DNA of 59,914 nt from an uncultured Planctomycetia bacterium (GTDB lineage: Bacteria > Planctomycetota > Phycisphaerae > FEN-1346 > JAACEH01): positions 1 to 59,914 of the forward strand of contig CAIYVX010000067.1 in NCBI GenBank assembly GCA_903929765.1, in the 5' to 3' direction. Positions 30,194 to 51,723 of the stretch are shown one piece after another (position 1 is the stretch's first letter; every line of letters begins with the position of its first letter). A program made the position numbers and the translations under genes. Below the pieces are notes generated by a model. That model did not search any database. It worked only from the letters and a program-made list of their open reading frames with translations, and was not told the DNA's origin.

Positions 30194-30390
30194 CGTACAA
30201 CCCCCTTTCACGGAAAACAGATTTCATCCCCGTTTTAATTTGTGCAGGCATAGGCCGACGGCGAAACGTCCGATGCTGGAGCCGAGTATAACGCGCCGGG
30301 CGGCACGCGGTGTATGAAATTTTTGTGCTGAATTTGTTGCCTTTCGGCGAAAAATCATAACCACTTGATTTACAAGAGGTTACAAAAGCG

Positions 30391-48540: not shown

Positions 48541-48568
48541 TTGCTTTCCTAAGTCTTTTGATTATAAT
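48541..48568 (+). promoter_or_regulatory. Predicted promoter of the secreted protease gene
   Basis: TTGCTT (48541-48546) and a perfect TATAAT (48563-48568) are 16 bases apart. The leader would be about 160 bases. The gap 48241-48735 is AT-rich, with T-runs near 48380 and 48410 that may end the MFS transcript; no gene is seen in it. Confidence 0.55.
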
Positions 48569-48735
48569 GACTTGTGACATTGTGGCGTTCGCTTGGGAAA
48601 AAAAAGAAAAGAAATTTTAGACGATGCTGGTTTCAGTCGATATGGCCTCCATAGCGAATAATAGGCAATTTGGGTAGTTTGAGCAAGACATGGTGTGGTG
48701 TGGGAGAGTTTTGCCAGCTTTACAGGAGGGGTGCC

Positions 48736-50378: not shown

Positions 50379-50425
50379 GAAACAAAGCCGGCCTCGCACT
50401 CCAAGTGCGAGGCCGGCTTTGTTTC
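50379..50425. terminator. Strong bidirectional-type terminator hairpin
   Basis: The 22-base arm beginning GAAACAAAGCCGGCCTCGCA (50379-50400) pairs perfectly with the arm ending GGCCGGCTTTGTTTC (50404-50425) across a 3-base loop. It ends the protease transcript 80 bases after the stop. Confidence 0.9.
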
Positions 50426-50730
50426 AAATCGCTGCGGAAAGGGCGGCCACTATGGTCAGACAGAAACAGCTCCCAGGGCGACGATTTGACATGATGCATA
50501 AAAGCTACGCCTGTTACCACGGACAACACTAGTCGTAAGTCCTTATTTTATAGTATGTTACGACGTTTAAACTGCCGTTGCTCATGGATCGTTGTTTCTG
50601 AAAACTAACAATAGGGCTATGTGAGTCGAGTCAATGGTAGAACAGAAAAATAAAATGAAAAAATTATAACTTGTTGTTGTAGCATTAGTTACGACTTTTT
50701 TTATCGTTGTGTTTTGTCAAATCGTCCGCG

Positions 50731-50746
50731 TGGCACGACCTTTGCT
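50731..50746 (+). promoter_or_regulatory. Predicted sigma-54 promoter
   Basis: TGGCACGACCTTTGCT matches the -24/-12 consensus TGGCACG-N4-TTGCW exactly. Transcription would start near 50757. No protein-coding gene follows on this strand. Confidence 0.7.
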
Positions 50747-50756
50747 ATTTAAGAGA

Positions 50757-51060
50757 GCAGTACAGCCCGCTCGCTTGGCATTGCTTAGATTATCCCGCAT
50801 AAGCCCTCCCCCGGGTGCGAGAGTCTCAGCAAACATGCCAAAACCCCCTTCACACTCTAAGCGGCGGGCTTAGAAAGCAGCCTGGCCTTGGGCCAGCGAA
50901 GTTATAAGAAGTTGGTTGAGAGTTTGGAAGTTCCGTGAATCATAAAAGTTGGTTGTACTGAAGGGAGCTTCAATCCCCGCAACTTGGGCGGTGCCTTCCC
51001 TCCAGGTCCCGCCCACTTAACGAAAACCGGGTCGTGGCGAGCAATCGCCACGGCCTGTTT
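50757..51060 (+). ncRNA. Candidate structured non-coding RNA
   Basis: About 300 bases between the sigma-54 promoter and a terminator-like hairpin. Four stems are visible: TAAGCCC/GGGCTTA (50800-50806 with 50866-50872), CTGGCC/GGCCAG (50882-50896), TGGGCGG/CCGCCCA (50985-51015) and CGTGGCGA/TCGCCACG (51033-51052) followed by CCTGTTTCTTT. A direct repeat AAGTTGGTTG occurs twice in the middle. The only small ORF, 12 codons at 50835, lacks a ribosome-binding site. No known RNA family is recognised. Confidence 0.4.
51033..51052. terminator. Terminator-like hairpin between ncRNA candidate and nth
   Basis: CGTGGCGA-GCAA-TCGCCACG is an 8-bp perfect stem with a 4-base loop. It could end nth on the minus strand (followed by ACCCGGTTTTCG) or the candidate RNA on the plus strand. 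Confidence 0.6.
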
Positions 51061-51081
51061 CTTTGCGCGCTGAACCGGCAG

Positions 51082-51723
51082 TCAAGTGATGGCGGACGCC
51101 GAAGGGCAAAGGTCATTGAGCGGACAGTCGGGGCAACGGGGGGTGCGAGCCACACAGATGCGACGACCGAGTTGAATCAGTTCGTGGCCGGCGCGGACCC
51201 AATCCTTCTCGGAAACCAATTTGTTCAAATCCTGCTCGATCTTGACCGGATCGGAATGCTTCGTCCATCCGAGCCGCGCCGCCACGCGCTTGACGTGGGT
51301 ATCGACCACGAAACCGCCGGGCCGCGCGCCGCTGTTGCCCAGGACGACGTTGGCCGTCTTGCGACCGACGCCGGGCAGTTCGACCAGTTCGTCGATTGTC
51401 GTGGGAACCCGTCCGCCATGCTTTTCGACGAGGGCGCTGCAAAAACCCTGGATGCTTTTGGCCTTGGTGTGATAGAAGCCGCACGACCGGATGGCTTCTT
51501 CCAACTCCGCCGGCGGCGCCTCGGCATAAGCCCGGGCGGTACGGTATTTTTTGAAGAGCGCCGGCGTGGTTTTGTTGACGCGAACGTCGGTACACTGGGC
51601 GCTGAGGACCGTGGCCACCAGAAGTTCCAGCGGCGTCTTGAAGTCTAGTGTGCAGCGGGCGTCGGGGAAAGCTTTTTGCAACCGTTTGAGCGTTTCCTCG
51701 ACCGGGGCAGGCTTGCGGGCCAT
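51082..51723 (-). CDS. nth: Endonuclease III
   Basis: A 213-residue base-excision-repair glycosylase/AP lyase acting on oxidised pyrimidines. The helix-hairpin-helix LPGVGRKTANVVL carries catalytic Lys122, and Asp141 lies in VVDTHVKR. The C-terminal iron-sulfur loop has Cys190, 197, 200 and 206 in the C-x6-C-x2-C-x5-C spacing. Length and motif order are standard. It starts just downstream of the isomerase gene with a 16-base gap, so it may be the last gene of that operon, though functionally unrelated. Confidence 0.96.
   Translation of the reverse strand: MARKPAPVEETLKRLQKAFPDARCTLDFKTPLELLVATVLSAQCTDVRVNKTTPALFKKYRTARAYAEAPPAELEEAIRSCGFYHTKAKSIQGFCSALVEKHGGRVPTTIDELVELPGVGRKTANVVLGNSGARPGGFVVDTHVKRVAARLGWTKHSDPVKIEQDLNKLVSEKDWVRAGHELIQLGRRICVARTPRCPDCPLNDLCPSASAIT

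Follow-up and report, generated by a model that had tools for sequence, protein, structure and literature searches.

A predicted sigma-54-dependent structured RNA with C-rich loops, conserved in one order of Planctomycetota

Small RNAs of the RsaE/RoxS type in Firmicutes carry unpaired C-rich motifs which pair with ribosome-binding regions. In mycobacteria, B11/6C likewise carries C-rich loops and represses an mRNA with a G tract in its 5′ UTR (PMC10470900), and the work of Mai et al. 2019, as cited in that paper, ascribes to 6C/B11 multiple targets reached without RNA chaperones. Small RNAs driven by sigma-54 are known as well: the gene of NrsZ in Pseudomonas, ~226 nt, is RpoN-dependent and works with an NtrC-type activator, and the large (407 nt) RpoN-dependent RNA CrcZ/CrcY of the same genus is driven by the activator CbrB (PMC8395346). 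Few regulatory RNAs have been described in Planctomycetota. A table in a review from 2022 contains 8 regulatory RNAs for the whole Planctomycetes-Verrucomicrobia-Chlamydiae group (PMC9029176), and our literature searches found no sigma-54-driven sRNA in Planctomycetota. Here we analysed a stretch of 59,914 nucleotides (the window) from an uncultured Planctomycetia bacterium, in which an earlier reading of the sequence (the original prediction) had placed a regulated small RNA behind an orphan sigma-54 promoter.

The -24/-12 box TGGCACGACCTTTGCT at 50731-50746 (+) carries the GG and GC elements, consistent with the consensus fit first claimed for it. The window has no other exact TGGCACG-N4-TTGCW, and shuffled sequence would give 0.02 of them. 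Because the motif was uninformative with two mismatches tolerated (12 found vs 10 expected), only the exact box was counted. Sites of the form TGGCAY-N5-TTGCW numbered 9 in the whole 3.8-Mb genome, vs 6 for the reversed control; a sigma-54-type box, TGGCACATTTTTTGCT, was also seen ahead of a groEL-like gene in this genome (L088, G000 C39:46127). As originally described, a strong terminator is located upstream of the box at 50379-50425, and nth (51082-51723) runs in the opposite direction, convergent with the RNA segment. About 18 bases separate the T-run of the RNA from the nth stop, a tightly convergent arrangement. With the start placed at the usual distance of 12 nt after the -12 C and the end placed at the T-run, the predicted RNA is ~308 nt long (50757-51064, +), and its start near 50757 would correspond, in most genomes, to a position a few bases 5′ of the outer stem. 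Relative to the extent initially given, 50731-51060, the predicted transcript starts only at ~50757, and the control sequences extend upstream as far as 50535, to a distal enhancer-like dyad that the original prediction had missed.

We then compared the locus with related genomes. A nucleotide search of 61 genomes (the bacterium's own and relatives) gave matches in G001, the only other genome of the window's own family (f1) among those searched, and further matches in several genomes belonging to the same order. R1, a covariance model built on the 5′ domain, matched all eight genomes examined from the order (E 1e-21 to 1e-28), whereas a class sample of 389 further genomes gave no match. A second covariance model found nothing in a sample of 391 further genomes from the phylum. 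The element is thus specific to the order, and every member examined carries it. No match to the RNA was found in plasmid and phage collections. Exact-motif matches in 12 Actinobacteria, one Rhodoferax and one viral contig were rejected as chance, since none fit the model over its length. In all eight genomes a -24/-12 box with GG and GC lies 71-94 nt 5′ of the invariant core: TGGCACGACCTTTGCT in the window's genome (G000) and TGGCACGGCCCTTGCA, TGGCACAGCCCTTGCA, TGGCACGCCCGTTGCT, TGGCATAGCCCTTGCT, TGGCACGGCGATTGCT, TGGCACAGGCCTTGCA and TGGCATAGCCGTTGCA in G001 to G007, respectively. The original prediction had pointed to a sigma-54 gene and enhancer-binding proteins as a check. We identified rpoN in 8/8 of these genomes, and sigma-54 activator domains in 8/8, with a best match per genome of E 3e-70 or lower, for a model that also gives weak matches to related AAA proteins in genomes without sigma-54. 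Judging from the sequence evidence, we are highly confident that the predicted RNA gene and its sigma-54 promoter are genuine.

The genes around the RNA bear on whether it could be a cis-acting element, that is, a leader, attenuator or antisense RNA of a neighbouring gene. The RNA adjoins nth in both f1 genomes, and in several genomes of family f2 a gene running in the same direction follows it, as would suit such an element. However, the RNA persists while its neighbours differ, both between the families (f1 has nth there, f2 other genes) and among the f2 genomes, its promoter and terminator are its own, and the close neighbour in the window is convergent with no overlap, all of which make a cis-acting role very improbable.

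The segment had been described as structured, and the plus-strand fold of 50731-51065 indeed outscored each of 100 shuffles (z -4.4; the other strand, z -2.5). The 5′ domain (50765-50869, +), which contains an invariant CCCUCCCCCGGG element, is formed by an outer stem P1 (GCCCGC/GCGGGC plus CGCTT/AAGCG), an inner stem P2 (GGCAT/ATGCC) and an apical hairpin. The apical hairpin displays the C-rich element CCCTCCCCC (50804-50812, +), invariant in 9/9 copies, inside an invariant 17-nt CCCTCCCCCGGGTGCGA (50804-50820). On the 3′ side of the P1 interior, the C-rich strand AAAACCCCCTTCACACTCT (50840-50858, +), whose AACCCC is invariant in 9/9 copies, is unpaired in the predicted folds of most relatives (f2). 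A second hairpin, CTGGCC-TTG-GGCCAG (50882-50896, +), is matched at the corresponding place in relatives by a hairpin of different sequence. It is followed by a variable middle, in which the window carries the repeated element of the original prediction, AAGTTGGTTG, at 50909-50918 and 50946-50955. The conserved motif AATCCCCGCAACTT (50972-50985, +) then precedes the 3′ hairpin, its UCCCCGCAAC being present in 9/10 copies of the 3′ domain and 7/8 genomes. The 3′ hairpin itself (GGGCGG..CCGCCC, 50986-51014, +) has the loop TCCCTCC, with CCCUCC in the RNA, and its loop is C-rich in 9/10 copies. The terminator-like hairpin reported earlier was recovered by a terminator scan as an intrinsic terminator at 51028-51064 (+), consisting of a hairpin (51028-51057) and a TTTCTTT tail.

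Homologues likewise end in T-run terminators on the strand of the RNA: in f2 the 3′ hairpin plus a T-run is the terminator, and in f1 a further hairpin serves as the terminator. The predicted transcript is 240-383 nt long in f2. In G001 a tandem duplication of the RNA brings it to 736 nt, with two copies of the 5′ domain and three of the 3′ hairpin on a single predicted transcript that again ends in a similar hairpin and TTTCTTT (locus L012, C47, at about 11.1-11.9 kb of the contig). In the f2 middle segment we observed copies of GUUGCGGG(G), the complement of the UCCCCGCAAC motif in the same RNA (G002, G004, G005 and G006; L013-L016), as well as GGAGGG, complementary to its own C-rich loops. 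These complements may possibly form an internal switch or a pseudoknot.

Comparison of the copies revealed pairs of P1 changed on both sides (U-A, C-G and G-C at one position; U-A and C-G at another) and compensatory changes in the 3′ hairpin at pairs 5-25, 6-24 and 9-21, with G-C, A-U, G-U and C-G found at one position. The inner P2 pairs never vary and hence give no information on structure. No shuffle reached the observed covariation score or count of double-changed cells, whereas the count of doubly changed pairs (2) did not exceed all shuffles. With 8 genomes contributing 9 or 10 copies, we regard the apparent covariation in P1 and the 3′ hairpin as real but limited. These data also speak to the reading that the segment encodes a small protein. 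Each homologue does have short ORFs, but they share no common reading frame, single-base indels fall within the best conserved domain, the stems show compensatory changes and the invariant 17-nt block has no codon rhythm. We therefore consider a small protein extremely unlikely, and the earlier statement that the segment holds no convincing ORF stands, since no conserved ORF emerged from the comparison. The locus thus combines a conserved structure with compensatory changes, its own terminator and no ORF, as expected of an intergenic sRNA. Together with the RNA, the promoter type, rpoN and activators in 8/8 genomes, this argues for the regulated small RNA that had been proposed.

A search of Rfam at gathering and permissive thresholds identified no family matching the RNA in the window, the segment or the seven homologous loci; the only match nearby was to an unrelated snoRNA model (E 4.6) upstream of the RNA. 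The RNA family search suggested earlier thus indicates an RNA outside the catalogued families and links it to no known one. A weak match to Acido-Lenti-1 RNA (28.8 bits; gathering threshold 37) was seen downstream of the RNA in G003 (L022:1313-1369). The RNA locus gave no match to the 6S model (RF00013), and neither the RNA nor its homologues matched the 6C covariance model. Could the RNA nevertheless be a diverged housekeeping RNA such as 6S? Its size and stable fold, and the fact that 6S was not found in G000 itself, would fit such a reading, but no Rfam model matches it at any of its loci, and 6S RNA is located elsewhere in G003 and G006, both of which also carry the RNA; the chance of this reading is accordingly minimal.

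Upstream of the sigma-54 box, we identified two 27-bp dyads of the form GTAA-N4-TT-N7-AA-N4-TTAC in 8/8 genomes. In the window, the distal enhancer-like dyad GTAAGTCCTTATTTTATAGTATGTTAC (50535-50561, +) lies 196 bp and the proximal one, ATAACTTGTTGTTGTAGCATTAGTTAC (50666-50692, +), 65 bp upstream of the box, and across the eight genomes they occupy -192 to -201 and -64 to -67, with a spacing of 128-134 bp. The locus and its homologues hence carry predicted upstream activator sites at about -65 and -195, as is typical of a sigma-54 unit. Expectation maximisation on the unaligned upstream regions yielded a palindromic motif scoring 27.9, vs at most 21.2 in 8 shuffles. The dyad sites had been picked by eye ahead of the leave-one-out test, in which a matrix built from the other seven genomes ranked both dyads 1 and 2 of 474 positions in 8/8 genomes, with scores of 8 to 25 bits for the dyads and mostly below 3, once 8.2, for the next position. 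Although the choice by eye calls for caution, these scores make a chance origin of the dyads improbable.

We further examined where else the dyad occurs. A scan of 449 kb from the window's genome gave 10 dyads with scores of at least 15, and three of these precede a strong sigma-54 box, vs ~0.03 expected, two of the three being the RNA's own. The other 7/10 are found at places without a good sigma-54 box, a point against the explanation proposed below. High-scoring copies without a good box nearby occur in the window at 30357-30383 and 48549-48575, the latter preceding the gene for a 542-aa protein upstream of the RNA. The window also contains a second sigma-54-type promoter, CGGCACGGGAGTTGCA (2501-2582, -), with the same kind of dyad 66 bp upstream and a short gene apparently downstream. 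In several genomes of the order, a GTAA-N19-TTAC dyad was seen 44-87 bp before the sigma-54 boxes of unrelated genes (L056, L058, L067, L070, L075, L078, L084, L091 and L092). These promoters, which carry one dyad each, belong to genes resembling glnA, amtB, flagellar hook/rod and porin genes, names that were read off the translations and not taken from a family search. The dyad does not point to one activator, since the same dyad stands before unrelated sigma-54 genes beside activators with different DNA-binding helices; it may represent an order-wide common enhancer. An enhancer-like dyad common to several sigma-54 promoters of the order would aid the mapping of sigma-54 regulons in a poorly studied phylum.

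Based on these features, we propose that the RNA is an activator-controlled, Hfq-independent, trans-acting sRNA which uses C-rich loops like mycobacterial 6C/B11. An NtrC-type activator would bind the dyads 65 and 195 bp upstream and open the promoter on some signal, and sigma-54 RNA polymerase would transcribe a structured regulatory RNA of ~308 nt. The transcript would fold into the 5′ domain, a small second hairpin and the 3′ hairpin, end at the intrinsic terminator and expose the short C-rich stretches CCCUCCCCC, ACCCCCUU, UCCCCGCAAC and CCCUCC. The invariant C-rich elements suggest that it pairs with G-rich sites in mRNAs in the manner of mycobacterial B11/6C; such pairing would take place in trans and without Hfq, at sites such as the Shine-Dalgarno regions of several mRNAs, and alter their translation. 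With the promoter, two enhancer-like sites, the terminator, the conserved structure and candidate loops all defined, each step is testable.

To assess the pairing step, we used 283 translation starts from crude gene calls. Pairing of the apical and 3′ loops with them was only slightly better than that of shuffled loops, the other C-rich strands had no advantage over shuffles, and full complements such as GGAGGG were rare. GGAG was enriched at the translation starts of the window's genome (25% vs 6%, with crude gene starts), and no conserved target gene was found. Because this target test gave a weak result, we hold the explanation as a whole, pairing included, to be somewhat favoured rather than strongly so. 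A broader version, in which the RNA acts lineage-wide and, once triggered by its activator, damps the translation of many genes together, several of its loops acting like anti-Shine-Dalgarno sequences that cover Shine-Dalgarno sites, would amount to a global translation switch under sigma-54 control in bacteria that lack Hfq; we regard it as decidedly unlikely.

The C-rich loops might instead sequester a protein that binds C-rich single strands, with sigma-54 control setting its free amount, as in CsrB/CrcZ-like decoys. Similar motifs are repeated in one RNA, the unit is tandemly duplicated in the 736-nt G001 transcript, and CrcZ itself is a 407-nt RpoN-dependent RNA (PMC8395346), all of which would suit a decoy. 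However, the motifs are not those of known sponges: the G000 transcript contains 2 GGA motifs, where CsrB/RsmZ have many in loops, and 0 AAnAAnA repeats of the A-rich Hfq-binding kind found in CrcZ. Hfq was detected in 0/8 order genomes by a search that detects it in five control genomes. The C-rich motifs also stand in differing structural contexts. A CsrA- or Hfq-type sponge was rejected on these low motif counts, and a protein decoy in general appears unlikely.

Compared with the described systems, the trans-acting RNA we favour resembles 6C/B11 in its C-rich loops, but 6C is a short RNA with two such loops, while the RNA here is larger and multi-stem with three or four C-rich elements, has a sigma-54 promoter, belongs to another phylum and lacks an Rfam match. 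From the RsaE/RoxS type it differs in size, promoter and phylum, again with no Rfam match. Like NrsZ it lies behind a sigma-54 promoter, although no Rfam family covers it; unlike CrcZ, which has A-rich Hfq-binding motifs, the G000 RNA has none, in a genome where Hfq was not detected. Since sigma-54-driven sRNAs such as NrsZ and CrcZ (PMC8395346) and sRNAs with C-rich loops are already known, the RNA is no new category; our literature searches turned up none like it, and it is a new family of such sRNA in a phylum with few described.
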